From Oscillospiraceae bacterium (GTDB lineage: Bacteria > Bacillota > Clostridia > Oscillospirales > Ruminococcaceae): a stretch of 53,339 nt of DNA. The position numbers were made by a program, and so were the translations under genes. Location: NCBI GenBank assembly GCA_015067025.1, contig SVNC01000014.1, positions 1-53,339 on the forward strand. The letters are read 5' to 3'. The notes under the pieces were generated by a model. That model saw only the letters and a program-made list of their open reading frames with translations. It had not been told where the DNA came from and ran no database searches. Below, piece by piece: positions 3,048 through 18,333 of the stretch (positions are counted from its first letter, which is position 1; the number at the start of each line of letters is the position of its first letter).

Positions 3048-3219
3048 TATCAATGACCTCCACGGTGATTTCGCTGTCAAGAGAAAATTTTTCAAAAAAG
3101 GTCTTGACATTCTCCGAGTTTTGTGATAAGGGAGCAACTCCAAAAATTTCTTTGAAAAAAGGCTTGACATTTCCTTCGTTCTGTGATATGGGACTTCCTG
3201 CTGTTACTTTCTTTTCCAT
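3028..3219 (-). CDS. 63-residue protein with a duplicated SQN..NVK.FF motif
   Basis: ATG 3217-3219 follows AAAGGTGG, a good ribosome site, and the reading frame overlaps the start of the winged-helix gene, as expected for a coupled pair. The protein contains two copies of SQNxxNVKxFFxxxF (about residues 12-25 and 32-45), matched at DNA level by an imperfect direct repeat of about 40 bp, then an acidic C-terminus. I do not recognise the family. The clean ribosome site and coupling argue that it is real; its function is unknown. Confidence 0.55.
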   Translation of the reverse strand: MEKKVTAGSPISQNEGNVKPFFKEIFGVAPLSQNSENVKTFFEKFSLDSEITVEVIDNGVLLR

Positions 3220-3816: not shown

Positions 3817-3845
3817 TTGACAAACAAGGAAAAATATGATAAGAT
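3817..3845 (+). promoter_or_regulatory. Sigma-A type promoter of the regulator/CydDC-like operon
   Basis: TTGACA (3817-3822), a 17-bp spacer and TAAGAT (3840-3845). The expected start is near 3852, directly before a small hairpin (3851-3868) and 33 nt before the first operator. Confidence 0.6.
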
Positions 3846-3884: not shown

Positions 3885-3900
3885 GTTAGCTATAACTAAC
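3885..3900. promoter_or_regulatory. Operator 1, GTTAG-N6-CTAAC
   Basis: A 16-bp dyad, gttagctataactaac, identical base for base to the site at 8601-8616. It lies in the leader of the regulator gene. The half-sites resemble the GGTTAG/CTAACC halves of DtxR/IdeR boxes, though the spacing differs. Confidence 0.7.
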
Positions 3901-3938: not shown

Positions 3939-3954
3939 GTTAGCCAACGCTAAC
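3939..3954. promoter_or_regulatory. Operator 2, GTTAG-N6-CTAAC
   Basis: The dyad gttagccaacgctaac ends 20 nt before the regulator start codon. Binding here would block elongation or translation-start access and suggests autoregulation by the adjacent regulator. Confidence 0.7.
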
Positions 3955-3973
3955 AAAATGGTTGGAGGAGAAA

Positions 3974-4351
3974 ATGACATCGGCAGAGCTTAAATATCTG
4001 ATGGCAATAGACGGATTATATGACGGAACGGTTGGAATAAAATTGATTGCAATAGCCGCAAAAATGAATGTTACAAAGGTAAGTGTATACAGGGCGGCAG
4101 AACGCCTTGAAAAGAACAGCTACATAAAGCGTGACGACAAAAACAAGATAGTGATGACCGAGATGGGCTATCAACAGCTTGAACAGTACAGAATGCTTAT
4201 CGACTGGCTCGGAAATCATTTACAGATGAAATGCGGCGTTTCGGCTGAAATCGCAGTAAGCGACGCAATCGGGGCGGCTTGTGCATTCAGTGACGAAAGC
4301 CGAACTGCACTTGCCGAATTTATCGAGAAAACAAAGGAGAACAGACAATGA
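3974..4351 (+). CDS. DtxR/MntR-type winged-helix regulator with altered metal site
   Basis: The start is ATG 3974 behind GGAGGAG; a TTG four codons earlier is less likely. The 125-residue protein aligns by eye along the length of MntR: an N-terminal helix, a winged helix (about 20-65, with VSVYRAAERLEKNSYIKRD and VMTEMGYQQLEQ), then the dimerisation helix YRMLIDWL and SDAIGAACAFSDES. The MntR metal ligands D8, E11, H77, E99, E102 and H103 correspond here to K, M, a gap or Met, I, A and Cys, so the usual Mn site is missing. It is the obvious candidate to bind the GTTAG-N6-CTAAC sites beside it. It overlaps the next gene by ATGA. What it senses is unknown; iron or haem would fit the neighbours. 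Confidence 0.7.
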   Translation: MTSAELKYLMAIDGLYDGTVGIKLIAIAAKMNVTKVSVYRAAERLEKNSYIKRDDKNKIVMTEMGYQQLEQYRMLIDWLGNHLQMKCGVSAEIAVSDAIGAACAFSDESRTALAEFIEKTKENRQ

Positions 4352-6075
4352 TAGATAAAGAGCTTTTGAAGCTGCTCGGCGGCAATAAAAAGTACATTTT
4401 CTATACCGTGGGCTTTATGGTGCTTGGTCTGCTTGCAAATCTCACGATTACCGCAAGCATCTGCCAGACAGTATATCTGCTTATGCAGAATGTCAACCCT
4501 GACGCATACATAACTCCTGCTATATGTGCATTATTTGGTATTATTGTACGTTACACTGCAAGCAGGATTACGGGAAATCTCAAAGACCTGCTTGGAAGAA
4601 AAGCCAAAAAGGACTTGCGTGAAAAGACCTACAACAAGATAGTAAGGCTCGGCGTCCGCAGTACCGACGGAATGAGTATTGCAGGACTTACACAGGTGGC
4701 AATGGAGGGTATCGAACAGCTTGATCTGTACTATTCCTCTTACATTCCGCAGTTTTTCTATGCAATGCTTGCACCAATTATACTTTTCGGAGTAACTGTT
4801 GGAATTGACTGGAGAGTTGCTGTCGTGCTGCTTTGCTGTGTACCGCTTATCCCCGTTTCAATCATAGCTGTATCAAAATATGCGAAGAAAATTTTTGCAA
4901 AATACTGGGGCAAATACACTTCTATGGGTGACAGCTTTCTTGACAGCGTGCAGGGACTTCGTGAGCTGAAAATTTTCCGTGCAGACGTTGCTCAGCACGT
5001 TAAGATGAATGAGAATGCAGAGGAGTTCCGCAAAATCACAATGAAAGTTCTTGTTATGCAGCTGGCAAGCACAACTATAATGGATATGGTTGCTTACGGC
5101 GGTGCAGGTATAGGAATTGCCTTTGCAGTAACAGGTGTTGTAAACAGAGGTTTATCGCCTGTTTCGGCATTGTTCCTGATACTCGTTGCGGTGGATTTCT
5201 TCCTTCCGCTCCGTGCATTCGGTTCAGCATTTCACGTTGCAATGAACGGTGCAAGCGCAGGGAAGAAGATTCTTTCCCTTTTAAATCAGCCTGACCCTGT
5301 ATGGGGTACTGAAAATGTTACCGACACTGAACTGAAGCTTGACAATGTTACCTTCAGCTATGACGGTGAACGTGATGTGCTGAAAAATGTAAGCGTAACA
5401 TTCCCCAAAAATAATATGACAGCAATCGTAGGCGAGAGCGGCTGCGGAAAGTCAACAATCGTAAATCTGCTTTTTGGTGCACTCCGTCCGAATGAGGGTA
5501 CAATTACAGTTGGCGGAAAAAGTCTTGAAAGTCTGTCCCGTGAAAGCTATTATTCAAGGCTTGCGGTGGTTAGCTACAACACATATATTTTCAACACGAC
5601 CGTCCGTGAAAATTTCAGACTTGTGAAAAATGATGCTACCGATGAGGAAATTTTTGCGGCACTTGAAAAGGTTAATCTTAAACAGTTTATCATAGACAAC
5701 GGCGGACTTGACAAAGAAATCACCGAGGACGCAAACAACATTTCAGGCGGTCAGAAGCAACGACTTGCCCTTGCTGTAAACCTTGTTGCTGACAAGGAAG
5801 TTTATATTTTTGACGAGGCAACAAGCAATATTGACATTGAAAGCGAAGCAATCATTATGCGTAATATCAGGGCATTGTCGGAAAAGAAAAGCGTTATCGT
5901 TATATCGCATCGCCTTGAAAATGTTGTACCTTCGGATTTAATTTATTATATGGAAAACGGCGAAATAAAGGAAAGCGGAACACACGCTGAGCTTATGAAC
6001 AAACAGGGCGGATATGCCGCATTGTACACCGCACAAAAGCGGCTTGAAAACGGTTATGCGGAGGTGAGCGAATGA
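4348..6075 (+). CDS. ABC exporter-type half transporter, CydD-like
   Basis: This 575-residue protein has six membrane segments (about 1-310) fused to an ABC ATPase. Walker A is VGESGCGKST (from residue 361), the signature is ISGGQKQRLAL, and Walker B is VYIFDEATSN. The membrane part is closest by eye to CydD (LRELKIFRAD; then FFLPLRAFGSAFHVAMNGAS before the ATPase). It overlaps both neighbours by 4 nt and pairs with the next gene as a heterodimer. CydDC was first described as a thiol exporter and later as a haem transporter. No cytochrome bd genes are in the window. With a DtxR-type regulator in front and a HutX-like protein downstream, a haem or metal-chelate role is plausible but inferred. 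Confidence 0.8.
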   Translation: MIDKELLKLLGGNKKYIFYTVGFMVLGLLANLTITASICQTVYLLMQNVNPDAYITPAICALFGIIVRYTASRITGNLKDLLGRKAKKDLREKTYNKIVRLGVRSTDGMSIAGLTQVAMEGIEQLDLYYSSYIPQFFYAMLAPIILFGVTVGIDWRVAVVLLCCVPLIPVSIIAVSKYAKKIFAKYWGKYTSMGDSFLDSVQGLRELKIFRADVAQHVKMNENAEEFRKITMKVLVMQLASTTIMDMVAYGGAGIGIAFAVTGVVNRGLSPVSALFLILVAVDFFLPLRAFGSAFHVAMNGASAGKKILSLLNQPDPVWGTENVTDTELKLDNVTFSYDGERDVLKNVSVTFPKNNMTAIVGESGCGKSTIVNLLFGALRPNEGTITVGGKSLESLSRESYYSRLAVVSYNTYIFNTTVRENFRLVKNDATDEEIFAALEKVNLKQFIIDNGGLDKEITEDANNISGGQKQRLALAVNLVADKEVYIFDEATSNIDIESEAIIMRNIRALSEKKSVIVISHRLENVVPSDLIYYMENGEIKESGTHAELMNKQGGYAALYTAQKRLENGYAEVSE

Positions 6076-7751
6076 GTAACACAAGACGAAGCGGTGCAAA
6101 AATTATGGCAAGTCTTATCCTGCTTCTTGGCTCGCTCGCCTACATAATGGTGCTTGCTGTCATAAACGGCTCACTTGGATTTGTCTGCGCTATGGGCGTT
6201 ACGCTTTTCGGCGCGGTAGGCATCGCAAAGGCTATGGGTGAGGCGATCGCACTCTCCTACGGCTGGATAATTGCTCTTGCAATCGGCTGCGGAGTAATGC
6301 GTGGACTGCTCCGCTATCTCGAACAGTACGGTAATCACTATATTGCATTCCGTCTGCTTGCGGTACTGCGTGACAGGATTTTCGGTGCACTCCGCACTCT
6401 CTGTCCCGCAAAGCTTGAAAGCAAACAGAAGGGCTCGATTATTGCAATGATAACCTCGGATATTGAAACGCTGGAGGTTTTCTATGCCCATACAATTTCG
6501 CCTATCTGCATTGCGGTGATAGTTTCCCTTGCGGTGTTTATTTTCGTGGGTACGGTCTCACATTGGTATCTTGCACTTGTGGCATTACTGGGATATATCC
6601 TTGTGGGAATTGCCGTGCCGCTTATCTCCTCGGGCAGGCTGAAGGAGTCGGGCGTGAAATATCGTGGGGAGTTTGCAAACTTCAACGCATATTTTCTTGA
6701 CAGCATAAAAGGCATAAAGGACATTGTTCTGAACAACGCAGGCGAAGACCGCAAGTCAGAGGTAAACCGCCGTTCCGATATTCTTCTTGCTGAAACAAAA
6801 AAGATGAAAAACGACATTACAAAAGCTTCCGCCGCAACGGAGCTTACCGTTTCGCTGATTATTTTTGCCACGCTTGCGGTTGGTGTAATTCTTGTTACAA
6901 AGGATATGCTTTCTCTTGGAAAAATGATTATCGGAGTAACAGCCGTATTCGGCTCATTTGGCCCTGTTATAGCAATTTCGGCACTCCCGGGAAATCTTAC
7001 ACAGACCTTTGCAAGCGGTGACAGAGTGCTTAATCTGCTTAATGAAAAGCCTGCGGTTGAGCCTGTTGCAAATGGTGAGAAATTTATTTTTGATAAGCTT
7101 GAAATAAACAATTTGTCATTCTCTTATGACGGTGAAACACAGGTGCTTTCCGATATTTGTCTGCACGCAGAAAAGGGTGAAATTATTGGTATCGTGGGCG
7201 ATAGCGGATGCGGTAAATCCACTCTGCTGAAGCTTCTTCTCCGCTTCTGGCAGAAGGACAAGGGAAGTATCTGCTATAACGGCATTGACATCGACAAAGT
7301 TGACGAAGAAAGCCTGCTTGACAATGCTACAATGGTAAGTCAGGTGACATATCTTTTTGATGAAACAATTGAGGATAATCTTCGTATTGTAAAGCCGAAC
7401 GCAACGCAAACGGAAATCGAAAACGCCTGCAAAATGGCTTCGGTACACGATTTTATCATGAGCCTTCCCGATGGCTACAAGACAAGAGTAGGCGCACTGG
7501 GCGACAATCTCTCCGCAGGCGAAAAACAAAGGCTTGGACTTGCAAGAGCGTTTCTCAGAGGAAGCGATTTAATCCTTCTTGACGAGCCTACAAGCAACGT
7601 TGACAGCATAAACGAGGGTATTATTCTTAAAGCACTTAAACAGCAGAAGCAAAGCAAGAGTATTATTCTTGTTTCTCACCGTGAAAGCACAATGGCAGTC
7701 GCTGACCGTGTTTACAGGGTTGAGGGAGGACGGATTTATGAGTGCTGTTGA
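6072..7751 (+). CDS. ABC exporter-type half transporter, CydC-like partner
   Basis: A 559-residue membrane-ATPase fusion that starts within the stop of its partner. The N-terminal half resembles CydC (RGLLRYLEQYGNHYIAFRLL, then IIAMITSDIETLEVFYAHTI). The ATPase has Walker A VGDSGCGKST, Walker B LILLDEPTSN and a weaker signature LSAGEKQRLGL in which the second Gly of LSGGQ is Ala and Gln is Glu. One degenerate signature is common in heterodimeric exporters and suggests asymmetric ATP sites. Translation is coupled to the flanking genes, whose frames overlap it. The transported molecule is inferred to be haem-like from context only. Confidence 0.8.
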   Translation: MSNTRRSGAKIMASLILLLGSLAYIMVLAVINGSLGFVCAMGVTLFGAVGIAKAMGEAIALSYGWIIALAIGCGVMRGLLRYLEQYGNHYIAFRLLAVLRDRIFGALRTLCPAKLESKQKGSIIAMITSDIETLEVFYAHTISPICIAVIVSLAVFIFVGTVSHWYLALVALLGYILVGIAVPLISSGRLKESGVKYRGEFANFNAYFLDSIKGIKDIVLNNAGEDRKSEVNRRSDILLAETKKMKNDITKASAATELTVSLIIFATLAVGVILVTKDMLSLGKMIIGVTAVFGSFGPVIAISALPGNLTQTFASGDRVLNLLNEKPAVEPVANGEKFIFDKLEINNLSFSYDGETQVLSDICLHAEKGEIIGIVGDSGCGKSTLLKLLLRFWQKDKGSICYNGIDIDKVDEESLLDNATMVSQVTYLFDETIEDNLRIVKPNATQTEIENACKMASVHDFIMSLPDGYKTRVGALGDNLSAGEKQRLGLARAFLRGSDLILLDEPTSNVDSINEGIILKALKQQKQSKSIILVSHRESTMAVADRVYRVEGGRIYECC

Positions 7752-8079
7752 AACAAAACGTCAGCGGGAGAAAAAGACGGTTGCGCTTATGATAAAGCTG
7801 TATTGCAGAAAAAATCACGGGGCGAGGAATGCTCTTTGCCCCGACTGCAAGGCACTTGCGGAATACGCCGCACAGCGTAGCGACAAATGCCCCTTTATCG
7901 AAAGCAAGACCTTTTGTTCAAATTGCAAGGTGCATTGCTATAAGCCCGAAATGCGTGAGAAGATACGGAAAGTGATGCGCTTTTCGGGGCCTCGCATAGT
8001 GCTGTATCACCCGATAATGGTAATCCGTCACGTTATTGAAAGCAAGAAGGAAAAACGAAGATTGGAGAATGTGCAATGA
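7738..8079 (+). CDS. YgbA-like 'nitrous oxide-stimulated promoter' family protein
   Basis: I start at ATG 7738 behind GGGAGGA (113 residues), because the longer frame upstream lies inside the previous gene. Seven cysteines (C23, C34, C37, C51, C60, C63, C67) with pattern LCPDCKAL...CPF...FCSNCKVHCY and the following EKIRKVMRFSGPRIVLYHP identify the PF11756/YgbA family. In enterobacteria ygbA is linked to nitrosative stress. The Cys spacing suggests zinc, iron-sulfur or haem-type metal binding, but no activity can be assigned from sequence. It overlaps both neighbours (14 nt and 4 nt), so it is firmly part of the CydDC-like operon. Confidence 0.8.
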   Translation: MSAVETKRQREKKTVALMIKLYCRKNHGARNALCPDCKALAEYAAQRSDKCPFIESKTFCSNCKVHCYKPEMREKIRKVMRFSGPRIVLYHPIMVIRHVIESKKEKRRLENVQ

Positions 8080-8468
8080 AGAAAATTTTATTGATAATTG
8101 TCGGCTGTATCGGAGTTGGACTGGGCGCAGTAGGTGCTGTTGTGCCGATGATACCTGCGTTCCCGTTCCTTATGCTGGCGGCGGTGTGCTTTGCCAAAAG
8201 CTCCGAAAGGCTTGACAGATGGTTCAAGGGGACAAAGCTCTACAAAAACAACCTTGAAAGCTTTGTAAAAGGTCAGGGTATGACCTGGAAAACCAAAATA
8301 AAGGTTATGATAACCGTCACTGTGCTTATGTCAATCGGCTTTATAATGATGTTTTTAAAGGCTGTTTATGTGCCGTGTATCATTCTTGGCTGTGTGTGGA
8401 TTTTCCATATTGTTTATTTCTTTTTTGGTGTGAAAACATACAAAATCAACGAAAATACGGCAAGTTAA
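8076..8468 (+). CDS. DUF454 (YbaN-like) inner-membrane protein
   Basis: A 130-residue protein with the DUF454 pattern: a first membrane segment with GLGAVGAVVPMIPAFPFLML, then AAVCFAKSSERLDRWF, a charged loop (YKNNLESFVKGQGMTWKTK) and two further membrane helices. DUF454 proteins such as E. coli YbaN have no established function, and relatives occur in haem/iron loci. The start overlaps the YgbA-like stop by ATGA. This is the last gene of the first operon; the hairpin at 8530-8544 may terminate it. Confidence 0.8.
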   Translation: MKKILLIIVGCIGVGLGAVGAVVPMIPAFPFLMLAAVCFAKSSERLDRWFKGTKLYKNNLESFVKGQGMTWKTKIKVMITVTVLMSIGFIMMFLKAVYVPCIILGCVWIFHIVYFFFGVKTYKINENTAS

Positions 8469-8472
8469 AAAT

Positions 8473-8488
8473 GTTAGCTATGGCTACT
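8473..8488. promoter_or_regulatory. Imperfect operator copy (GTTAG-N6-CTACT)
   Basis: gttagctatggctact has a perfect left half and one mismatch in the right half. It lies 2 nt upstream of the -35 box at 8491, as a degenerate half-site does at 3794-3810 upstream of the first promoter. Confidence 0.4.
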
Positions 8489-8490
8489 GC

Positions 8491-8519
8491 TTGATTTGAA
8501 AACGCAGATATGGTATCAT
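8491..8519 (+). promoter_or_regulatory. Probable promoter of the second operon
   Basis: TTGATT (8491-8496), a 17-bp spacer and TATCAT (8514-8519). The start would be near 8526, 36 nt before the operator at 8562. Confidence 0.45.
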
Positions 8520-8529
8520 ATCAAAGTTC

Positions 8530-8544
8530 GGGAGCCTTGCTCCC
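8530..8544 (+). terminator. Small GC-rich hairpin
   Basis: gggagc-ctt-gctccc followed by ttaaat. It could end the first operon (62 nt after its last stop) or act as a leader stem for the second operon if the promoter at 8491 is used. The T-tract is weak. Confidence 0.4.
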
Positions 8545-8561
8545 TTAAATAAAAGGATTGT

Positions 8562-8577
8562 GTTAGCGTTAGCTAAC
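8562..8577. promoter_or_regulatory. Operator 3, GTTAG-N6-CTAAC
   Basis: The dyad gttagcgttagctaac fits the 16-bp consensus exactly and contains an additional internal half-site (gttagctaac), so two overlapping registers are possible. Confidence 0.7.
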
Positions 8578-8600
8578 CTTCTTTCTTTTTTTGATGCAAG

Positions 8601-8616
8601 GTTAGCTATAACTAAC
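8601..8616. promoter_or_regulatory. Operator 4, GTTAG-N6-CTAAC
   Basis: gttagctataactaac is identical to operator 1. It ends 4 nt before the GGAGG ribosome site of the lipoprotein gene. Confidence 0.7.
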
Positions 8617-8633
8617 AAACGGAGGTTTTATTT

Positions 8634-9413
8634 ATGAAGAAGATAATTTCTATTATTATGGCGGCAGTGATGTGCGTTTGCCTCGCAGGCTGTCAGCAGG
8701 AGGAAAAAGCCGCAGAGATCACGGTTTCACGCAGCTTTATCGCAGGCTATGTGATAGGCGGCGAGGAAGAAAACACCGAGCCTGACGCAAGCTGCCGTGT
8801 GCTTATGAATCTTATGAGCGACGGTACTGCGGAATTTTATGTAGGCTCTATTGAAAACGGAGAGTACAGCAGCGAGCAGTACAGCGGTACCTATACCCTC
8901 GGAGAAAACGAGGAGTATGATGAAACCATCACCTTTGATTACACCTACGGCGAAACAACTGTAAGCGTAGAAAACGCAGTTATCATCGACAGCATATTTG
9001 AGTCAGAGTTCTATCTTATGGGTGACATCACACCGAGTAAGATAAGCTTCTACGAAACAAAGCCTGCTGATATGGACGGAGATGTTTATGTGGGCTACAA
9101 GACAAAGGTCGGGGGTATGGGTGCGATGGTTTACGCTTACTCCCTGTGCCTTAAGGAGGACAGCACCTTTGATGTAAGCATTATGCAGCTTGCAAGCGTA
9201 ATGCACGTCTGGGGCGGTACAAACGGTACTTATACAGCTGATGGCGAGAACATCACCTTCACCTACAACATTCTCACCGACGAGGGCGAGATAGTATCCG
9301 AAAATGAAATAGCAAACGGCACAGGCTACACTGAAACCGAGCTTTCCACCGCATTCAACATTCAGCAGGCAACAATGCGTGCAACTGACGCACCGTTTAT
9401 AAGAGTAAAGTAA
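8634..9413 (+). CDS. Lipoprotein with beta-rich module shared with the downstream repeat lipoprotein
   Basis: ATG follows GGAGGTTTTATTT. The 259-residue product has a signal peptide and lipobox CLAGC (about residue 19), so it is anchored on the outer face of the membrane. The rest is acidic, Thr/Tyr/Gly-rich and beta-like. A stretch around residues 150-215 (VYVGYKTKVGGMGAMVYAYS ... GTYTADGENITFTYN) matches by eye the pattern of the duplicated module in the lipoprotein at 16817. The gene heads the second operator-controlled operon. A ligand-capture role for the neighbouring importer is inferred; no known family was recognised. Confidence 0.65.
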   Translation: MKKIISIIMAAVMCVCLAGCQQEEKAAEITVSRSFIAGYVIGGEEENTEPDASCRVLMNLMSDGTAEFYVGSIENGEYSSEQYSGTYTLGENEEYDETITFDYTYGETTVSVENAVIIDSIFESEFYLMGDITPSKISFYETKPADMDGDVYVGYKTKVGGMGAMVYAYSLCLKEDSTFDVSIMQLASVMHVWGGTNGTYTADGENITFTYNILTDEGEIVSENEIANGTGYTETELSTAFNIQQATMRATDAPFIRVK

Positions 9414-9432
9414 TTGAAAGGAGCACATCACA

Positions 9433-10119
9433 ATGGAAAGAGCAAGAACAGAAACAGGCGAACTCAACAGATTTTTTGGTTGGGCATACAGAACAAGAGG
9501 CAACACGGTAAAGGCGCTTGCCGAGGGCAAGGAGATGTCACCCGAGAAGATTTTTCTTTCGTTCACCTCTCATGACCCCGTGTTCATAAGCCACGGCTCG
9601 GCAGGGCTTAACGGCTCTGTAAAGGGTATCGGTTTTATTCCCAAAGCGGAATATCTTGAAGAAGCCCTTGCCGCTTATATCGAGCATATAAAAAGCTACG
9701 ACCCCGGGGATAAGGGCTACAGCAACAGAGGACTTCAACTGCTGCTGAAATGGCTGTACTCCGAGGAGGCGGAAAAGACCGTTGATTTTGAACATATATA
9801 CAGCGTGGAAATGGCTTTCAAGCATAGCTGGACGAATTACCGCGAAAATTCCGAGGCAACCTTACTTTTCTATCAGCCGCCTATGCTCTCCTTTGAGGTA
9901 AGAGGACAGATGGAAATTGTGGGCGAGCATAACGAAATAGGCAGCTGCTCTCCCTTTGAACTGCCCCTTATTCAGCAGTTTATCAACGCACAGCACGATG
10001 TTTACCACACACCGAATATCGACCGCTGGGTAACCCGTCCCGCCTATAAATTCACTGTTGAGGAGATTTTCGATAACTCTGCAAACAAGATAGGCTTCGG
10101 CACAAAAATCCCTTACTGA
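9433..10119 (+). CDS. Unrecognised soluble protein of the acquisition operon
   Basis: A 228-residue protein with good ribosome site (AAAGGAG) and no signal peptide or membrane segment, hence cytoplasmic. I do not recognise the family. Visible features are an Arg/Gly-rich start (FFGWAYRTRGNTVKALAEGK), a TSHDPVFISHGSAGL segment, and a His-rich C-terminal half (FEHIYSVEMAFKHSW, then INAQHDVYHTPNIDRW). It lies 20 nt after the first lipoprotein and 10 nt before the substrate-binding protein, so it is co-transcribed with an importer and a HutX-like protein. Clustered histidines and the context make a role in handling the imported ligand possible, but this is a guess from position. Confidence 0.6.
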   Translation: MERARTETGELNRFFGWAYRTRGNTVKALAEGKEMSPEKIFLSFTSHDPVFISHGSAGLNGSVKGIGFIPKAEYLEEALAAYIEHIKSYDPGDKGYSNRGLQLLLKWLYSEEAEKTVDFEHIYSVEMAFKHSWTNYRENSEATLLFYQPPMLSFEVRGQMEIVGEHNEIGSCSPFELPLIQQFINAQHDVYHTPNIDRWVTRPAYKFTVEEIFDNSANKIGFGTKIPY

Positions 10120-10129
10120 TGGAGTAGTT

Positions 10130-12034
10130 ATGAAGATAAAAAATATTATTTCCGCCGCACTTGCGGTATGTATGGCAATGTCGCTCTGCTCGTGCGCTGT
10201 TCGTGAGGATAAGTATGAAAATTCCTTGAGAGTAGGTACAACGGAGCTTCCCAAAAACTTAAACCCATATTCATCTATGGAAACCTCTGCGACCTTTTTC
10301 GTGGGACTTTTCTACAACACTCTTTTAGGCTCTGCGACAGCACCTGCTGATTATATTGAGGGAGAAACCTATACCTTTCCCGACAGCGAGGTTTACACTC
10401 CCGTTGATACAAATATAAATCCGCTTTCCTTTGCGGACGGACTTGTTGAGTGCGAGGGTGCATTCCCGAAAACCGCCGACAGCGTTTACGGCTATGAATA
10501 TTTCAACCCTACGGAAGAAGAATGGGCGGAGCAGTGTGAGCGTGAAAGCATAAAATTCGGCTTTGACGAAAGCGGCAATCCCATAACCGAAACGGAAGAA
10601 GAATTTATGGAGCGTGCGCTTATCGCTGTTCCGAACGAGAACTGGATGCGTTTTCGTTTTAAGGTGGTCGAGGGACATTCCTGGAGTGACGGAACGCCGT
10701 TCACTGCCGAGGATATAAAGTTTACCTTTGACTATATCATCAAGCATTCGGGTGCGTTGGGAAGTCAGGCGTACTTCCTCACCGATTATTACAAAAGCGA
10801 GGTCGTTGACGGGGATTTTGTATTTACTCTTGCAAGCAGTAACTATACCTCTATGAAAACCATCTGCAACTCCATCGTGATTATCCCGAAACATATCTGG
10901 CAAAGCGTACGCTCTCCTGCGAAGGAGAAGAACCTGAATCCCATTGGCACAGGAGCATACTACATAGCCGAGGGAGATTATATCGAGGGCAGCTCTATCA
11001 CCGCAACTATCCGTGACAATTATGATGAAACGCTTAAAAAGGAAATGTTTTCGGGCGAGCCTATCGAGAACATCTCGGTCATTCTTATGAGTAACGAGGA
11101 CGTACTGATAAATGCACTCAACGAGGGAAATGTTGATTTTATGCTGAATTCAGTTACACCTGCAAAGACCTATGCGGTGGAGAACAATCCGTCTTACAGC
11201 AATGTGGATATTTCGTCTGTTACAAGCGAGACCGTAACAACCCTGCTTTTCAATGTAGGCGAAAACGGAGCGTTCAAAGATGGCGGTTTTGACGGCTATT
11301 CCTATGAAATCAGAAAGGCTATCTCCCTTTGCCTTGACCAGCAGAAGCTCATTGACGAGGTACTGCACGGCAAGGGCGTAAGAGTGGGTGACGGACTTGT
11401 TCAGGACTACTTCGACCACGCTTATGTTGACGAAAACGGCGAATATGTCTATCACAAAACAAGTGTTGAGGAGGCAAATGCACTGCTTGATACCACATCT
11501 TATAAAATGGGCGAAAACGGCAGTCGAGGCATTACGTTGACGATATTTGCAACTCCCGACAACGAGATAACAGTAAAGGCTATCGCAACACAGCTTGAAC
11601 AAATCGGCATCGCCATTGAATACGAACAGGCAACTGCGACCTATTCCGAGGATATAAAACAGCAGAACAACGCTGATTTCGATATGATAATAAACCGTGT
11701 TACCTACAATTCCGACAAGCTGCTTATGTTCAATGCACGCTACGGAGTTTATCCCGCAACGGGGAGCGTAAGACTGTTCAACTATTCGGGAATTATTGAT
11801 GAAACACTTATTGCAATGATGAACGACATGGAGCTTACCTCCGATACAAATGAGCAGTACGAAAAGTGTCGCAAGGTGCAGAAATACATCGCAGATTTAG
11901 CGGTGGAAATTCCGCTTTACTCCGAAAGCACCATTACATTTTACAGCGACAGCAAGTGGCAGGGCTGGACGGAAGCCGAGGGGCTTTCAATCTGGAACAG
12001 CTATACCACACGATACTTACATAAAGCACAGTAA
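10130..12034 (+). CDS. Dpp/Opp/Nik-type substrate-binding lipoprotein
   Basis: At 634 residues this is larger than the usual 500-550 for SBP_bac_5 proteins. The N-terminus has a signal peptide and lipobox SLCSC. Family landmarks are LRVGTTELPKNLNPYSS, a long acidic insert near residues 65-165, VEGHSWSDGTPFTAEDIKFT, and the late IRKAISLCLDQQKLIDEVLHG. It captures a peptide-like, metal-chelate or haem ligand outside the cell and feeds the two permeases downstream. Dpp systems can carry haem in E. coli (established), and the HutX-like neighbour makes that a reasonable suggestion here. A start near GGAG and the 10-nt spacing show it belongs to the operon. Confidence 0.85.
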   Translation: MKIKNIISAALAVCMAMSLCSCAVREDKYENSLRVGTTELPKNLNPYSSMETSATFFVGLFYNTLLGSATAPADYIEGETYTFPDSEVYTPVDTNINPLSFADGLVECEGAFPKTADSVYGYEYFNPTEEEWAEQCERESIKFGFDESGNPITETEEEFMERALIAVPNENWMRFRFKVVEGHSWSDGTPFTAEDIKFTFDYIIKHSGALGSQAYFLTDYYKSEVVDGDFVFTLASSNYTSMKTICNSIVIIPKHIWQSVRSPAKEKNLNPIGTGAYYIAEGDYIEGSSITATIRDNYDETLKKEMFSGEPIENISVILMSNEDVLINALNEGNVDFMLNSVTPAKTYAVENNPSYSNVDISSVTSETVTTLLFNVGENGAFKDGGFDGYSYEIRKAISLCLDQQKLIDEVLHGKGVRVGDGLVQDYFDHAYVDENGEYVYHKTSVEEANALLDTTSYKMGENGSRGITLTIFATPDNEITVKAIATQLEQIGIAIEYEQATATYSEDIKQQNNADFDMIINRVTYNSDKLLMFNARYGVYPATGSVRLFNYSGIIDETLIAMMNDMELTSDTNEQYEKCRKVQKYIADLAVEIPLYSESTITFYSDSKWQGWTEAEGLSIWNSYTTRYLHKAQ

Positions 12035-12054
12035 CTAAAACGGGAGGAAGAATT

Positions 12055-13161
12055 TTGAAAGGCTATTATTTAAAAAAGGTGTTAAGCTCGCTGTTTGTGC
12101 TTTTCATCATTATAACGCTGAATTTCTTTCTTCCTCGAATGATATTCAGCGATCCTGCACAGCCCTACTATGTGGGAGTGCCTGAGGACGCCTACGCTCT
12201 GCGTGAGCAGATACAGGAGGAATATGGCTTCAATGACCCGCTTATAGTCCAGTATTTCGATTATCTGGGCAGAGTTTTTACACTTGATTTCGGGCAGTCC
12301 CACTACTACAAGGAAAGCGTGTGGACAGTAATGTTCAGCCGTATTCCGTGGTCTATGGTGCTGACGGTTTCGTCAATGCTGTTTTCGGTGCTGTTCGGAA
12401 TTATTTTCGGCGCAGTGGCAGGCAAAAAGCGTGATAAAGCTCCTGATAAGGCACTTATGTGGCTGTCGGGAGTAACTACGGCAATACCGTCCTTCTGGCT
12501 TGCTATGGTGACGGTTATGCTGTTCGGTTTTACGTTGAAAATATTTCCGTACAGAGGGGCAATGACCGCAGGCTATACTCTTTCGATGAACGGTACGGCT
12601 TTTCTCATTACGCTTGCAGTCGGGATTGTAATTGCGATAATTCTGAAAGCGATAACGAAAAAATCTCTTTGCATTTTTGTGGGAGTTCCTGTGGCACTAA
12701 CTGCGGCACTGTTCGTTTCCGTTCCCTTTGCGGATATCGCAGATGTAGCGTATCACGCTTTTCTGCCCGTTGCGATTTCTGTGTTCTCGGGTGTTATTTC
12801 CTACGCTATGCTTGTGCGTAACAGTATGATAGCTGTCACGAATGAGGACTATATCCTCACCGCAAGAGCAAAGGGCTTGCCGCCTCACGTTGTACTGTAT
12901 AAGCACACCTTCAGAAATGCGCTTTTACCGCTTATCACAAATGTGGGAATGTCAATGGCGGGTCTTATGGGCGGAAGCGTGCTTATGGAAAAGATATTCT
13001 CATGGCCGGGTATGGGACAGCTACTGCTTGATGCCTGCAACAACGGCGACTATCTGCTGTCACAGTCGATACTGCTTTTATTTGCGGTGATAACGGTAGT
13101 CTGCAACTTCATCACCGACCTTGTGTATCACAAATTCGACCCGAGAGTGAAAGAGGTATAA
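12055..13161 (+). CDS. DppB/NikB-type ABC permease with extra membrane segment
   Basis: Translation probably starts at TTG 12055 behind GGGAGGAAG. The 368-residue protein has the BPD permease fold with ATPase-contact loop DYILTARAKGLPPHVVLYKH and a C-terminal SWPGMGQLLLDA. Relatives are about 300-340 residues long. The extra length lies between about residues 180 and 235 and adds two hydrophobic segments with a short positively charged turn. It pairs with the next permease. The TTG start may lower expression relative to the binding protein. Confidence 0.85.
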   Translation: MKGYYLKKVLSSLFVLFIIITLNFFLPRMIFSDPAQPYYVGVPEDAYALREQIQEEYGFNDPLIVQYFDYLGRVFTLDFGQSHYYKESVWTVMFSRIPWSMVLTVSSMLFSVLFGIIFGAVAGKKRDKAPDKALMWLSGVTTAIPSFWLAMVTVMLFGFTLKIFPYRGAMTAGYTLSMNGTAFLITLAVGIVIAIILKAITKKSLCIFVGVPVALTAALFVSVPFADIADVAYHAFLPVAISVFSGVISYAMLVRNSMIAVTNEDYILTARAKGLPPHVVLYKHTFRNALLPLITNVGMSMAGLMGGSVLMEKIFSWPGMGQLLLDACNNGDYLLSQSILLLFAVITVVCNFITDLVYHKFDPRVKEV

Positions 13162-13164
13162 GGT

Positions 13165-14163
13165 ATGAAAAACATAATAAATACCGTCTGTTCTGCGGTC
13201 AGAAGCATAGGCAGATTTCTGCTGAAAATTCTCAAAAATCCCAAGGGCAGGCTTGGCGTTATCCTTGTGGGAATTGTGGCTTTGGCGGCAATATTCGCAC
13301 CCTATCTCACACCTTATGAGCTTGACGATTACGATATTGCAAACGGACTTGCAAAGCCCTCTGCTGAACACCTACTCGGCACAGACAAAAACGGAATTGA
13401 CATCCTCACACAGATACTTTACGGTGCAAGAATTTCCCTTATAATCGGACTTACAACAGGTATATGCGTTACGCTTCTCGGTGCAACGCTGGGGATAGTT
13501 TCAGCGTATTTCGGCAAGGTCAGCGCAGGGGTTATTCTGAACATCATAAATGTTCTCCTCGTAATTCCGACCACACCCCTTATGATGATAATGAGCAATC
13601 TTTCATCAAGCTATTTGATGATGATTGCGGTGTTTACACTCATCGGCTGGTGCGGTACTGCACGAATGGTAAGAGCGCAGGTGCTGTCCGTAATGAATAT
13701 GAACTATATCCGTGCGGCAGAGCTTGCGGGCGGCTCTAAAACCTATATAATGTTCCGACATATTATGCCTGCGATTTCGCACCTGCTTATTATGAACTGC
13801 GCACTCTCCTGTGCTGGCTTTATGATAGCCGAAGCAGGACTGAGCTTTATCGGGCTTGGTGACCCGTCTGTCATGAGCTGGGGAAAGATACTTGTTGCGG
13901 CGCAGGAAAGCGCATTTTCATCAGGCTTGTGGGCTTGGGTAATAGCTCCCGGTGTAGCAATATTCATCACCGTTTTTGGATTTATGCAGATAGGCTATGC
14001 TCTTGAAGAAATACTCAATCCCAAAATCAAATGCAGAAAAATAAAGAAGAACGGTATTTCTCCCGAAGCCGAGGCTGAACAGATATTTGCTGAAATGTCC
14101 GACATAAGCGAGGAAGTAGCAATAGCGCTTAAAGAAAAATACCACGCAGGAGCAAAGGTATGA
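13165..14163 (+). CDS. DppC/NikC-type ABC permease
   Basis: A 332-residue integral membrane protein, second half of the importer channel. It shows the DppC N-terminal cytoplasmic arm and first helix (GRLGVILVGIVALAAIFAPYL), the HLLGTDKNGIDILTQILYGA segment typical of the family, and the contact loop NYIRAAELAGGSKTYIMFRH. The C-terminus carries an additional hydrophilic tail of about 45 residues (EAEAEQIFAEMSDISEEVA). It begins 3 nt after the previous stop and its stop overlaps the following ATG, so the permeases and ATPase are translationally coupled. Confidence 0.88.
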   Translation: MKNIINTVCSAVRSIGRFLLKILKNPKGRLGVILVGIVALAAIFAPYLTPYELDDYDIANGLAKPSAEHLLGTDKNGIDILTQILYGARISLIIGLTTGICVTLLGATLGIVSAYFGKVSAGVILNIINVLLVIPTTPLMMIMSNLSSSYLMMIAVFTLIGWCGTARMVRAQVLSVMNMNYIRAAELAGGSKTYIMFRHIMPAISHLLIMNCALSCAGFMIAEAGLSFIGLGDPSVMSWGKILVAAQESAFSSGLWAWVIAPGVAIFITVFGFMQIGYALEEILNPKIKCRKIKKNGISPEAEAEQIFAEMSDISEEVAIALKEKYHAGAKV

Positions 14164-15155
14164 ATGTACTTGATATAAAAAATCTGAAAATACTTTTCCG
14201 AAGCGATGAGGGCTTTGTCCGTGCCGTTGAGGGAGTGGATATATCCATAGGCGAGGGTGAAAAGGTCGCAATCGTTGGTGAAAGCGGCTGCGGAAAGAGC
14301 GTTACGGCACATTCCTGTATGAAGCTGCTGAATACTCCGCCTGCGTATACACAAGCGGATAAATTCGAGTTTATCTCCCGTGACGGAATTATACACAATA
14401 TCCTCGAAAAAGGCGAAAACGAAATGCTCCCTCTCCGTGCAGAGGAAATGGCGATGATTTTTCAGGACCCGTCAACTTTTTTAAATCCCGTTATGACTAT
14501 CGGCGAACAGCTTGACGAGGTATTTATTTATCACAGAAAAATGAAGCCGAAAGAGGCAAGAAAGCACAGCCTTGAAATGATGAAAAAGGTCGGTATCCCC
14601 GACCCCGAAATGCGTGCGGAGCAGTATCCTCACGAGCTTTCGGGCGGCTTAAAGCAGAGAATTCTGATCGCTATGGCAACATCGCTTTCTCCCAGACTGC
14701 TTATTGCTGACGAGCCGACAACCGCCCTTGACGTTACCATTCAGGCACAGATTTTAGAGCTTATATCCGAACGGTGCGAAAAGGAAAATATGTCGCTTCT
14801 GATGATAACCCACGACCTCGGAGTTGTGCGGCAGATGGCTGACAGAGTTTATGTGATGTACTGCGGAAAAATTGTGGAGCAGGGCACGGTTGACGAAATA
14901 CTTTCCAAACCTCAGCACCCCTATACAAAGGCTCTTATTGATACCATTCCGAGTCTTGACAGCGAAATTGACCGCTTTGTGCAGATTCCGCACAATGTCC
15001 CTCACCCGATGAATAAGCCGAACGGCTGTTACTTTTCAAACAGGTGTGCCTACTGCACCGAGCTTTGCACAAAGCAGATGCCGCCGCTTTTCACGAGAGA
15101 AAACGGCAGAAAGGTACGCTGTCACTTTGAAACGGAGGAACTATGGGAGAAATAA
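14160..15155 (+). CDS. DppD/OppD-type ABC ATPase
   Basis: This 331-residue cytoplasmic ATPase powers the importer. It has Walker A VGESGCGKS, signature LSGGLKQRILIAMA, Walker B LLIADEPTTALDV, switch His in MITHDLG, and the oligopeptide-type C-terminal extension with clustered Cys residues (CYFSNRCAYCTELC), which in some OppD/F proteins binds an iron-sulfur cluster. An insert near residues 65-85 (EFISRDGIIHNILEKGENEM) is longer than in typical OppD. It overlaps the next ATPase gene by 13 nt. Confidence 0.9.
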   Translation: MNVLDIKNLKILFRSDEGFVRAVEGVDISIGEGEKVAIVGESGCGKSVTAHSCMKLLNTPPAYTQADKFEFISRDGIIHNILEKGENEMLPLRAEEMAMIFQDPSTFLNPVMTIGEQLDEVFIYHRKMKPKEARKHSLEMMKKVGIPDPEMRAEQYPHELSGGLKQRILIAMATSLSPRLLIADEPTTALDVTIQAQILELISERCEKENMSLLMITHDLGVVRQMADRVYVMYCGKIVEQGTVDEILSKPQHPYTKALIDTIPSLDSEIDRFVQIPHNVPHPMNKPNGCYFSNRCAYCTELCTKQMPPLFTRENGRKVRCHFETEELWEK

Positions 15156-16120
15156 TACTTAAAACCGATAACCTCACCGTTGATTTCAAGGTGAAGAAAA
15201 GCGTTTTCGGAAAGCACGACAGACTTTCCGCCGTACAGAATGTAAATCTTGAAATCCGCAAGGGCGAAATTTACGGTCTTGTGGGAGAAAGCGGCTGCGG
15301 TAAATCCACCTTTGCAAACGCAATTCTCGGCTTTGTGCCGATTACATCAGGCTCGTTTGAGCTTTGCGGTCATACAGTAAATTCAAAGACAAAGCAGAGC
15401 GAATGGAAAGAGGTGCGCCGCCATTTACAGACTGTCTTTCAGGACCCTTATTCGTCCCTTAATTCACGCTTTACTGTGTGGCAGATAATTTCCGAGCCGC
15501 TGTATATTGCAGGTGAACGCAATGAAAAAATACTCCGTGAGAGAGCCGCAGAGCTTGTGGAAAAGGTCGGACTTTCGTTGCAGGATTTAGACCGATATAT
15601 TTTTGAATTTTCAGGCGGTCAGCGGCAGAGAGTAGCAATTGCCCGTGCGCTTATCACAAATGCAGAGCTGATAATCTGCGATGAGCCTACCTCGGCGCTT
15701 GATGTTTCGGTACATTCGCAGATATGCAATTTATTGCTTGATTTGCGGGAAGAATACGGACTTACATATCTTTTCATTTCCCACAATCTTTCGCTTATCA
15801 AGCACATTACCGAGCGTATGTCGGTGATGTATCTCGGAGAGGTAATGGAAAGCGGCAGTACGGACGAGATTTTCAGAAATCCCGTCGTGCCGTACACAAA
15901 GGCGCTTATGTCTGCAATCCCTGAAGTAAATCCAACGGAAAAACGGGAACGCATTATCCTTTCAGGCGAGGCGAGAAGTCCTATAAATCCGCCCGATATA
16001 TGCCGCTTTGCAGGAAGATGCCCGAACGCTACGGATATATGCCGTACAATGCCATTGCCGCAGGCTGTATCGGTAGGAAATGAACATTTTGCAAGATGTC
16101 ATTTGTGCGAGAAAGGGTAA
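15143..16120 (+). CDS. DppF/OppF-type ABC ATPase
   Basis: The 325-residue partner ATPase shows Walker A VGESGCGKST, signature FSGGQRQRVAIARAL, Walker B LIICDEPTSALDVS and switch His in FISHNLS. Its C-terminal extension again carries four Cys (CRFAGRC ... CRT ... CHLC). With the preceding gene it forms the heterodimeric motor. The ribosome site (GGAGG) lies inside the end of the previous gene, giving tight coupling. The next gene starts 4 nt after its stop. Confidence 0.9.
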   Translation: MGEIILKTDNLTVDFKVKKSVFGKHDRLSAVQNVNLEIRKGEIYGLVGESGCGKSTFANAILGFVPITSGSFELCGHTVNSKTKQSEWKEVRRHLQTVFQDPYSSLNSRFTVWQIISEPLYIAGERNEKILRERAAELVEKVGLSLQDLDRYIFEFSGGQRQRVAIARALITNAELIICDEPTSALDVSVHSQICNLLLDLREEYGLTYLFISHNLSLIKHITERMSVMYLGEVMESGSTDEIFRNPVVPYTKALMSAIPEVNPTEKRERIILSGEARSPINPPDICRFAGRCPNATDICRTMPLPQAVSVGNEHFARCHLCEKG

Positions 16121-16124
16121 ATCT

Positions 16125-16799
16125 ATGGATAACGAAAATTTAAAATGTCCTTGTATGCCGCAGTGTCCGAATTACGGAAAATGCCGTGAGTGTATTGCGG
16201 CTCATGAAAAATTCTACACTGTTCCTAAATGTATAAAAATAATGCAGGAGGAAATGAAGATAAATCACCTTCACCCCTCAAATCCGCATATAAAAAGGAC
16301 GCTCCCCGAGCGTGTAAAGGAATACTATGAACAGCACACCTATACTCATCTTCGCACCGCCGCAGAGGAGCTGAAAATTACTGAATGGCAGCTGCTTGAC
16401 GCAATGGAAACTGCTGTATCTGTTCCGAAAGAGGATTTCAAGGAGATTTATAATCAGCTTAAAGTTCTTGACAGCGTAATGCTGCACCTCGACACAGGCG
16501 GAGTGCTTATGCAGATAACCATGCCTCTGCCCGAAATCATTGACAGGCAGGGCGTTGATATCGTCAGCAGCAAAGATGAGGAAATTTCAATTACCTCTCT
16601 TGTCTTTGAAAAAGAAATATACGCTCTTTTTCTTGTAAGAGAAAAGTTATGCGGCGGTAAAGAAAGTTTAAGCTTTGCCGTAATCGGCGAGGATGAAAAA
16701 ATATCGCTCTCAATCTATCTTCGCAGAACTGCGGAAAATTTAATCCAGTCAAATGCCAAGGAGCTTTTCGAGGCTCTTTGGACAAAATATATCAACTAA
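16125..16799 (+). CDS. Cys-rich protein with C-terminal HutX/ChuX-like haem-utilisation domain
   Basis: I start at ATG 16125 rather than in-frame ATG 16080 because the latter lies inside the previous gene; this gives 224 residues. The N-terminus has six Cys (8, 10, 14, 20, 23, 36; CPCMPQCPNYGKCREC). From about residue 65 the protein follows HutX/ChuX haem carriers by eye: a winged-helix-like start (LRTAAEELKITEWQLLDAM), VLMQITMPLPE, ISITSLVFEKEIYALFLV, then the block corresponding to the family's PFMGRES...FKIYLGRDE (here LCGGKES ... SLSIYLRRTAE). The family's HGHL histidine is not kept. It probably receives or traffics a haem-like ligand in the cytosol. Domain call is by eye, so moderately sure. 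Confidence 0.65.
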   Translation: MDNENLKCPCMPQCPNYGKCRECIAAHEKFYTVPKCIKIMQEEMKINHLHPSNPHIKRTLPERVKEYYEQHTYTHLRTAAEELKITEWQLLDAMETAVSVPKEDFKEIYNQLKVLDSVMLHLDTGGVLMQITMPLPEIIDRQGVDIVSSKDEEISITSLVFEKEIYALFLVREKLCGGKESLSFAVIGEDEKISLSIYLRRTAENLIQSNAKELFEALWTKYIN

Positions 16800-16816
16800 A
16801 AGTAAGGAGAATTCCA

Positions 16817-18013
16817 ATGAAGAAAATTTTAACTGCAACAATTATTTTAGGTGTAATGCTTTGTGCGGCAGGCTGCTCAACCGATACGGCACAGGAAAGC
16901 TCGTCACAGACCACAACCTCTGCAACAACCGAAGCTGTATCTACCGAAGCAGCTGTTGGCAATTCCATAAATGAAGGCGAGCTTAAAACAGGCGCATATT
17001 CAGGCAGCTCCGCTTACTCTGAGGGCGAGTTCAGTATGGAATGGAATTATACTGTTTTTTTCAATGCCGACGGAGCATTTACCCTCACAGATAAAGCAGG
17101 CGAGGAAAAGGGCGCAGGTACTTACGCGCTCACCGACAACTGCTATACAATGACCTACAGCGACGGCAGAACCTGCACCTTTGTTGTTCAGGCGGACGGT
17201 ACTGTCAAGATTACTTCTGATATGCCTTACGGTCAGGCTTCAATTACTCCCGATATGGTAGGCGGTATAACACTTTCCTTTATCGGAGAAGCAGTTCCCG
17301 AAGAAGATGAAGTTGTTGATGAAACAACCTCTGACGAAGCTGTTGCAACAGGTGATTTCTCTATCGCCGCAGGTACATACTCCGCAAGCTATATCAAGGA
17401 AAGTCCTATGGCAGGTACTGTTGAATACAAGTACTCCGCAGATATCGGAGCAGATACTTTCTCATACAGCGTAAGCTTCGATATGGGCGGTACAGCGTAT
17501 GACGGTTGCTCCGCAAGCGGTACATATACCGTTGACGGCGGAAAGTTTGTGTTCACAGACGAGGCTGGTACAATTACAGAGGGTACTCTCACAGCAGACA
17601 ATACTCTCGTTATTTCTCTCAAGTCTTCTGAAATGGCAAAAGAGCCTTATGAGGTTACATTTACTTTAGTTGACACACATGCTGAAACAGGCTTTACTCT
17701 GAACGAGGGAACATACTCCGCAAGCTATATCAAGGAAAGCCCCATGGCAGGTACAATTGAGTACAAATATTCTGCAGAAATCGGAGCAGATACATTCTCT
17801 TACAGCGTTAGCTTCGATATGGGCGGTACAGCGTATGACGGTTGCTCTGCTAGCGGCACATATATCGTTGACGGCGGTAAGTTCGTATTCGCTGACGAGA
17901 GCGGCGCAGTAACAGAGGGCACACTCACCGCAGATAACACTCTTGTTATTTCTCTAAAGGCTTCTGATATGGCGAAAGAACCTTATGAGGTTACATTTGT
18001 GATAGCTGAATAA
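16817..18013 (+). CDS. Lipoprotein with two near-identical tandem modules plus a divergent third
   Basis: The start is ATG 16817 behind AAGGAG, followed by a signal peptide and lipobox CAAGC; an upstream in-frame ATG overlaps the previous gene. After a Ser/Thr-rich linker, a divergent beta-rich module (about residues 55-155) precedes an acidic linker and two 112-residue modules (from about residues 186 and 298) that differ at only a small number of positions. Each module runs GTYSASYIKESPMAG, YKYSA.IGADTFSYSVSF, GTY.VDGGKFVF, GTLTADNTLVISLK. This points to recent internal duplication and a surface binding role. Last gene of the importer operon. The family is not recognised. Confidence 0.7.
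   Translation: MKKILTATIILGVMLCAAGCSTDTAQESSSQTTTSATTEAVSTEAAVGNSINEGELKTGAYSGSSAYSEGEFSMEWNYTVFFNADGAFTLTDKAGEEKGAGTYALTDNCYTMTYSDGRTCTFVVQADGTVKITSDMPYGQASITPDMVGGITLSFIGEAVPEEDEVVDETTSDEAVATGDFSIAAGTYSASYIKESPMAGTVEYKYSADIGADTFSYSVSFDMGGTAYDGCSASGTYTVDGGKFVFTDEAGTITEGTLTADNTLVISLKSSEMAKEPYEVTFTLVDTHAETGFTLNEGTYSASYIKESPMAGTIEYKYSAEIGADTFSYSVSFDMGGTAYDGCSASGTYIVDGGKFVFADESGAVTEGTLTADNTLVISLKASDMAKEPYEVTFVIAE
17372..18013 (+). repeat. Two tandem 336-bp coding repeats in the lipoprotein gene
   Basis: Unit 1 begins at 17372 (ggtacatactccgcaagc) and unit 2 at 17708 (ggaacatactccgcaagc), exactly 112 codons apart. Many differences are at third codon positions, so the protein is conserved more than the DNA. 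Confidence 0.9.
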
Positions 18014-18107
18014 CCTTGTGCAGTTCTGCTCATTGCGGCAGGAATGCTTTTTATACGGCGCGTGCAAAAATAAAGGCAAAATATCGTGATATTATGCAGT
18101 CTTACCA

Positions 18108-18136
18108 TTGACACTTTCGGATAAAAGGTGTAAAAT
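18108..18136 (+). promoter_or_regulatory. Consensus-like promoter with no gene behind it
   Basis: TTGACA (18108-18113), 17-bp spacer, TAAAAT (18131-18136). This is the best promoter in the cluster. Transcription would start near 18143, just before the operator at 18145-18160. Confidence 0.7.
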
Positions 18137-18144
18137 ATAGAGAG

Positions 18145-18160
18145 GTTAGATGACGCTAAC
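18145..18160. promoter_or_regulatory. Operator 5, GTTAG-N6-CTAAC
   Basis: gttagatgacgctaac fits the 16-bp consensus and covers the predicted transcription start, a classic repressor position. Confidence 0.7.
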
Positions 18161-18240
18161 AATTGAAAAGGAGTTCGCTATGTTACTTACAATAGAAATA
18201 TAATCGTACTATATAATCGGTGGAGTTCCTGAAACTAAAT

Positions 18241-18289
18241 ACAATTAACAGGCGTATGCAATTTTTCTTTGCATACGCCTGTTAATTGT
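18241..18289. terminator. Perfect 21-bp inverted repeat, terminator-like
   Basis: Arms of 21 bp with no mismatch enclose a 7-nt loop. Being symmetric it could act on either strand. It lies between converging transcripts. Confidence 0.55.
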
Positions 18290-18333
18290 TTCATTAGCCA
18301 CCGTTTAGTCAATAACCATTAGTGCTTTGGAAT

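Follow-up and report, generated by a model that had tools for sequence, protein, structure and literature searches.

The 53,339-nucleotide contig SVNC01000014.1 of an Oscillospiraceae bacterium (assembly GCA_015067025.1; the whole contig is referred to below as the window) carries a cluster of fourteen plus-strand genes (positions 3962/3974 to 18013) which, on balance, appears to be an iron-repressed locus for the uptake and handling of haem, possibly of haem-carrying peptides. The cluster encodes a regulator with the DtxR/MntR fold, a pair of ATP-binding cassette (ABC) proteins related to CydDC, a complete importer of the Dpp/Opp type, a HutX-like protein, a protein with the split-barrel fold of the PNPOx/HugZ superfamily and additional lipoproteins, and copies of one palindromic operator, GTTAGN6CTAAC, stand before both of its operons as well as in the Feo operon elsewhere in the genome.

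All the gene families that a sequence-only reading had named for this stretch are present, with family support, and the genes within each operon overlap or are separated by at most about 20 bp. The cluster had been proposed as one unit, but a division into two parts describes it better: module 1, with the CydDC-like pair, YgbA and DUF454, and module 2, from lipoA to lipoB. The reasons are that YgbA and DUF454 are seen with CydDC-like genes in other genomes and, the window apart, not in module-2 loci, and that three loci of other genomes (L019, L020 and L024) carry module 2 without the CydDC-like pair. The features of the cluster are as follows.

3817..3845, +, promoter-like TTGACA-17-TAAGAT of module 1 (read by eye)
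3885..3900, +, operator GTTAGCTATAACTAAC (exact pattern match)
3939..3954, +, operator GTTAGCCAACGCTAAC, 19 bp before the regulator start at 3974 (exact pattern match)
3974..4351, +, regulator with DtxR/MntR fold, 125 aa (NCBIfam match, alignment)
4348..6075, +, CydD-like ABC exporter-fold half (NCBIfam, alignment)
6072..7751, +, CydC-like ABC exporter-fold half (NCBIfam, alignment)
7738..8079, +, Cys-rich protein of the YgbA family (Pfam: YgbA_NO PF11756, E 2.6e-47)
8076..8468, +, DUF454 membrane protein (Pfam: PF04304, E 8.5e-32)
8473..8488, +, degenerate operator-like palindrome GTTAGCTATGGCTACT, two mismatches (read by eye)
8491..8519, +, promoter-like TTGATT-17-TATCAT of module 2 (read by eye)
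8562..8577, +, operator GTTAGCGTTAGCTAAC (exact pattern match)
8601..8616, +, operator GTTAGCTATAACTAAC, 17 bp before lipoA (exact pattern match)
8634..9413, +, lipoprotein lipoA (sequence, structure model)
9433..10119, +, split-barrel protein, PNPOx/HugZ superfamily fold (family alignment, structure model)
10130..12034, +, substrate-binding lipoprotein (SBP) of family 5 (Dpp/Opp/Nik type), 634 aa (Pfam: SBP_bac_5, E 9.7e-44)
12055..13161, +, DppB-type permease (family search)
13165..14163, +, DppC-type permease (family search)
14160..15155, +, DppD-type ATPase (family search)
15143..16120, +, DppF-type ATPase (family search)
16125..16799, +, HutX/ChuX-domain protein with an N-terminal Cys cluster; start at 16125 preferred over 16080 (Pfam, alignment)
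16814..18013, +, lipoprotein lipoB with lipocalin-like (PF13648) repeats (Pfam)
18108..18136, +, promoter-like TTGACA-17-TAAAAT ahead of operator GTTAGATGACGCTAAC (read by eye)
18145..18160, +, operator GTTAGATGACGCTAAC (exact pattern match)

An operator shared with the ferrous-iron regulon

Exact copies of GTTAGN6CTAAC begin at positions 3885, 3939, 8562, 8601 and 18145 of the window. With one mismatch allowed, the scan of the window returned five matches, all of them exact, against a chance mean of 1.48, and five were reached by 2 of 100 shuffles; in the whole genome (2.41 Mb, 29 contigs), 13 exact sites were found, compared with one for the reversed-pattern control. Six of the operators outside the window lie in one stretch of contig C2 that encodes DUF2325, DUF3793, flavodoxin, FeoA (recognised by eye) and FeoB. 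Because of the copies in this stretch, the operator is assigned, on sequence, to a ferrous-iron regulon of which both modules are predicted members. The common operator on which the single unit had been founded is thus real by window and genome counts but not private to the locus, given that the Feo operon has it as well. Two further operators are located on contig C1 (position 6476 of the stretch L002 and position 6581 of L003), near the start of one gene that resembles carboxynorspermidine decarboxylase and the start of another for an ABC ATPase, which is accompanied by a large permease of the FtsX type (names assigned by eye).

The operator recurs at homologous positions in other genomes. 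Among the module-1 heads examined (window, L055-L065, L088, L089 and L024), 13 of 15 have an exact copy within 300 bp upstream, L059 and L061 being the two without a site in that interval. Ahead of lipoA, an exact copy is present within 300 bp in six of nine loci (window, L019, L088, L023, L025 and L089), L024 and L027 have only one-mismatch sites, and L020 has none over the same distance; in base-shuffled upstream stretches, the operator occurred at mean frequencies of 0 and 0.0007. The site begins 36-41 bp before the lipoA start codon in the five other loci with an exact copy, and 33 and 72 bp before it in the window. Palindromes with one mismatch that resemble GTTAGCTATGGCTACT are found 132-153 bp before lipoA in L019, L088, L023, L024, L027 and L089.

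The regulator encoded at the head of the cluster keeps the fold of the type to which it had been assigned (38.8 bits to MntR); however, the canonical metal ligands, at positions that we take to be those of DtxR/MntR, are replaced both in the window protein and in the cluster-adjacent copies of L088, L089 and L024. All four regulators contain an HxxxxC motif, which has lost one residue in L024, and a Cys further along the chain. The C13 paralogue, which is the other DtxR-fold protein found in the genome, scores 84 bits to MntR and apparently keeps the ligand set. A changed signal for the window regulator is possible.

Conserved order and proteins of module 2

Nine other genome contigs, selected for HutX, encode the HutX-like protein. 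In all nine, DppF precedes the HutX-like gene and lipoB follows it (with only the end of DppF in L026), and in seven of the nine, lipoA, the split-barrel protein, the SBP and DppBCD are encoded upstream; the stretch of L021 begins inside DppC. In L026 (9580-11159), the HutX-like gene and lipoB follow the end of DppF, and the other module-2 genes are missing from the 9.5 kb upstream, an arrangement that is either a chimera or a real loss. In the seven loci, the split-barrel and Dpp proteins are 79-88% identical to those of the window, the SBP is 70-77% identical, and the lipoproteins reach roughly 48-64%. The sequence-only reading had named a lack of co-occurrence as one finding that would refute its proposal; the genes do co-occur in this neighbourhood comparison, with the order of module 2 kept in other genera. 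Its notion of one unit is borne out in part: the CydDC-like pair lies directly upstream of module 2 in five of the eight informative loci (window, L022/L088, L023, L025 and L089, as opposed to the three loci mentioned above), but YgbA and DUF454 are absent beside module 2 elsewhere. L021, L026 and L027 are uninformative for this linkage; L022 and L088, which have the same length and the same identities, are apparently one contig and were counted once. In two genomes from another family of the order (G957 and G1146), the operator, regulator, CydD, CydC, a second operator, lipoA, split barrel, SBP, DppBCDF and lipoB form a single run; HutX is present in G957 and lacking in G1146.

The SBP of family 5, two permeases and two ATPases with oligo_HPY tails, all encoded in one operon, make up a complete ABC importer of the Dpp/Opp type. 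None of the listed NCBIfam equivalogs for Dpp, Opp, Nik and Cnt reached its cut-off with the permeases and ATPases, and the same holds for the SBP. The product of 16125..16799 is a HutX-like relative with an added Cys cluster: the ChuX_HutX Pfam domain scores 28.5 bits against a cut-off of 25, the family profile matches the ChuX structure 2ovi with an E value of 4.1e-8, and the NCBIfam HutX equivalog is below its cut-off (38.1 of 110 bits). Homologues number 137 (E <= 0.001); the Cys cluster and the ChuX domain occur together in the 45 that were aligned, in which C8, C10, C14, C20, C23, H27 and C36 are invariant. The split-barrel protein, earlier considered an orphan, belongs to a family with 311 matches, and H47, H85, H188 and H192 are invariant in the 56 aligned members. 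Its fold is supported by the structure model and by structure comparison, with HupZ ranked first by VIA-align; the family yielded no sequence match to a solved haem oxygenase, and 6VNA is not among the structure matches listed for the model. In the model of lipoA, a signal helix is followed by strands only, seemingly as two successive all-beta domains.

The CydDC-like pair

The two ABC halves of module 1 are classified as CydDC-like rather than CydDC because their scores are below the cut-offs of the NCBIfam equivalogs (CydD, 384.9 of 435 bits; CydC, 302.3 of 329 bits). In Escherichia coli, CydC H85 and CydD H312 are the axial ligands of the haem iron, and R77, R81 and R136 of CydC are near the propionates (PMC10374445). 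H89 of the window CydC-like protein aligns with H85 and is present in 13 of 13 CydC-like sequences; H296 of the CydD-like protein aligns with H312 and is present in 12 of 12 CydD-like sequences. The propionate contact R77 is retained in 13 of 13 CydC-like sequences, and the CydC-like protein of Lachnospira eligens has H at this position. Ten ABC-B paralogues were taken from the same genome for comparison, and all six informative ones have His at neither of the haem-ligand places. The likeness to the E. coli protein, on the description in PMC10374445, lies in the heterodimer with both axial histidines of haem conserved, whereas the differences are the low identity (25% for CydD and 28% for CydC), the replacement of R81 and R136 by Q and H, the iron operator, the YgbA and DUF454 neighbours and the lack of a detected cytochrome bd. 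No match to cytochrome bd subunit I (PF01654) was found in the genome (G000, completeness 98.5%), the control being positive in 10 of 14 genomes, and none to ferrochelatase.

Outside this genome, CydD-like matches numbered 12, and neighbourhoods were taken for 11 (all except G068). YgbA and/or DUF454 accompany the CydDC-like pair in eight of the 11 stretches (L055-L061 and L064) but are not seen in L063 or in L062 and L065, the last two being stretches that stop early; no module-2 gene beyond general ABC similarity is seen in any of the 11. In the record of Subdoligranulum variabile, two operators are followed consecutively by CydD-like, CydC-like, YgbA and DUF454 genes. DUF454 is reported to be raised under iron restriction in Avibacterium (PMC7970244). 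In Lachnospira eligens (L093, 5983-7923), a protein annotated as iron-dependent repressor metal-binding domain is encoded after the CydC-like gene, and the CydD-like match covers the second half only. A CydDC-like subfamily with the haem histidines, in a genome without detected cytochrome bd, is useful for asking whether such pairs import haem.

Comparison with known haem systems

The opp operon of Paracoccus denitrificans includes Pden_1323, a HugZ homologue that acts as a c-type haem oxygenase degrading c-type haemopeptides (PMC8131568). The window cluster shares with it a PNPOx/HugZ split-barrel protein encoded together with a complete Opp/Dpp-type ABC importer and differs in being clostridial and in having the iron operator, the HutX-like protein, extra lipoproteins and the CydDC-like pair; furthermore, Pden_1323 is an oxygenase, whereas the window family, as noted, lacks a sequence match to solved ones. 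The authors of that study suggested that haemopeptides in the gut could be used by enteric bacteria possessing both an Opp system and a homologue of Pden_1323 (PMC8131568), and the cluster fits this suggestion. The hutWXZ genes of Vibrio are described as an iron-regulated operon (PMC6018153), in which, to judge by a reference title in PMC10404700, HutX passes haem to HutZ; here too, a HutX-domain protein and a split-barrel protein belong to one cluster with predicted iron regulation, although in the window the Dpp-type importer is inside the cluster and no HutW scores above cut-off in the genome. In Group A Streptococcus, HupZ is repressed by MtsR, a DtxR-like protein (PMC6018153); it has about half the length of the window split barrel (119-126 residues for the compared chains) and is encoded in the two-gene hupYZ cluster.

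Proposed function and alternatives

Under the favoured explanation, a DtxR-type repressor would leave GTTAGN6CTAAC at low iron, and the Feo operon and both modules would be expressed together. The surface lipoproteins and the SBP would collect the ligand, which DppBCDF would import; inside the cell, haem would be carried by the HutX-like protein and bound by the split-barrel protein, HupZ/HugZ-like in fold, which would help to release the iron. The host is presumably anaerobic, and without oxygen haem would be handled by a non-oxygenase route or plainly stored. The CydDC-like pair, in which the ligand histidines are conserved, may move haem across the membrane by trap-and-flip of the CydDC type, import being favoured because the pair has the operator of the iron-uptake genes and because the genome yielded no cytochrome bd. 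Uptake by Dpp followed by handling by the HutX-like and split-barrel proteins is preferred because of the Paracoccus opp-HugZ, HutX-HutZ and MtsR-HupZ precedents. A more specific form is conceivable and rather doubtful: an oxygen-independent version of the gut haemopeptide system in which Dpp would import haem peptides, the helix-extended split barrel with its four His would strip or reduce haem, the Cys-cluster HutX would hand it over, and the His/Cys DtxR paralogue would sense haem or Fe-S status instead of free metal. The cluster provides a testable set of parts for a possible use of haem iron by gut Clostridia without HutW-type enzymes, tied to the FeoAB iron regulon by the common operator.

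A number of observations weigh against a haem locus. The reading is weakest where it must do without oxygen: the HugZ-group enzymes known so far are oxygenases, which act aerobically according to PMC6018153. Haem, the substrate suggested by the sequence-only reading, is backed by the conserved CydDC histidines, the split-barrel fold and the published opp-HugZ haemopeptide precedent, but the substrate, like the transport direction, the iron repression and the chemistry, rests on inference. HupZ is reported to bind haem without coordinating its iron and to have weak activity that depends on an added ligand, and Group A Streptococcus is reported not to grow on a haem c fragment (PMC9237417). HutW/ChuW (TIGR04107), the anaerobilin synthase that was considered as a candidate for opening the haem ring, is not found above cut-off in the genome, in which the best match, at 144.6 of 400 bits, is presumably HemW; this model gives matches below cut-off in most of the 14 control genomes too. 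In CydC, R81 is replaced by Q and R136 by H in 13 of 13 CydC-like sequences, and CydC is not the nearest relative of the CydC-like half among solved structures (phmmer). L089 has no HutX, NikA models are among the four NCBIfam matches of the SBP (all far below cut-off), Foldseek ranks a PNPOx-like protein first for the split barrel, and the scores of flavin and F420 proteins are only slightly lower than that of HupZ. Outside the order, the split-barrel gene directly precedes SBP-DppBCDF in five of six other genomes, three of the five from one genus (the sixth, G728, has the split-barrel gene without adjacent Dpp genes). None of these five distant units has the operator or showed a HutX-like match, so that the split-barrel/Dpp pair may originally have served a substrate other than haem. 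One such unit, in G696 (L054, 5841-8162), lies convergent to a gene of the CcmF family, which serves cytochrome c assembly.

The Dpp-type system could instead import another iron or metal chelate, such as an opine-type metallophore or a siderophore-like peptide, with the split barrel as a flavin enzyme that reduces or modifies the chelate; iron control would then be real, and no haem would be involved in module 2. In addition to the NikA matches of the SBP, models of NikB/NikC and of CntC/CntD/CntF (staphylopine) match the permeases and ATPases, all of them far below cut-off, as is the case for Dpp and Opp; most structural matches of the split barrel bind flavin or F420, and a ZIP metal transporter gene is located near the distant unit of G218. 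This explanation is nevertheless considered unlikely, given that the HutX-domain gene follows DppF in nine of nine loci (selected for HutX; DppF end only in L026) and that none of the 14 annotated cluster genes, to which this search was confined, resembles metallophore biosynthesis.

The two modules might also perform separate jobs under one iron regulator, with the CydDC-like pair exporting haem or thiols for detoxification or redox balance and Dpp importing ordinary peptides whose breakdown needs a flavin enzyme. Descriptions of CydDC in E. coli make it a haem exporter or a pump for sulfur compounds (PMC13337084, PMC4132815), and module 2 occurs without CydDC in L019, L020 and L024. In G001 (L057, 403-5222), the neighbours of the CydDC-like pair are a DUF3793-like gene with an operator and genes for a TetR-like protein, an ABC ATPase and a permease of the FtsX type (names assigned by eye), a layout that resembles the HrtAB/FhtR haem exporter as presented in PMC11282960. 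Both modules, however, carry the operator of feoAB, an arrangement more in keeping with acquisition than with export, and a division of labour of this kind seems quite improbable. A different tetrapyrrole from the gut of herbivores, for instance a breakdown product of chlorophyll or bilin handled by the same haem-like folds, is very hard to credit as the substrate, since an iron-free ring would leave the co-regulation with feoAB unexplained.

Distribution and flanking elements

A full-length HutX-like match is present in one of 119 near relatives, namely the genome of the window itself, and 11 other genomes match the Cys cluster only. The split-barrel gene was detected in 2 of 391 genomes of the class sample, 6 of 398 of the phylum sample and 3 of 394 of the order sample; these samples overlap, and G000 is counted in each. 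Because the gene is found in so few sampled genomes, the module can be considered rare. The cluster is absent from most of the near relatives examined, high similarity between families is seen for its Dpp and split-barrel proteins, and DUF3801 and DUF6017 genes border it on the left; it was likely gained horizontally.

At the contig edge to the left of the cluster (positions 1-3170, other strand), the window encodes DUF3801, MatE and DUF6017/HTH_36 proteins; these genes, of which the DUF3801 and DUF6017 kinds occur in conjugative elements, resemble the end of an integrative conjugative element. On the other side, the fifth operator (18145) is downstream of the last cluster gene, at the expected start of the promoter-like TTGACA-17-TAAAAT. 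It is followed on its 3' side (within 18101-18300) by a ribosome-binding-like site, a 7-codon frame and a long inverted repeat, all recognised by eye, and the element as a whole is either what is left of a former gene or a small RNA under iron control.

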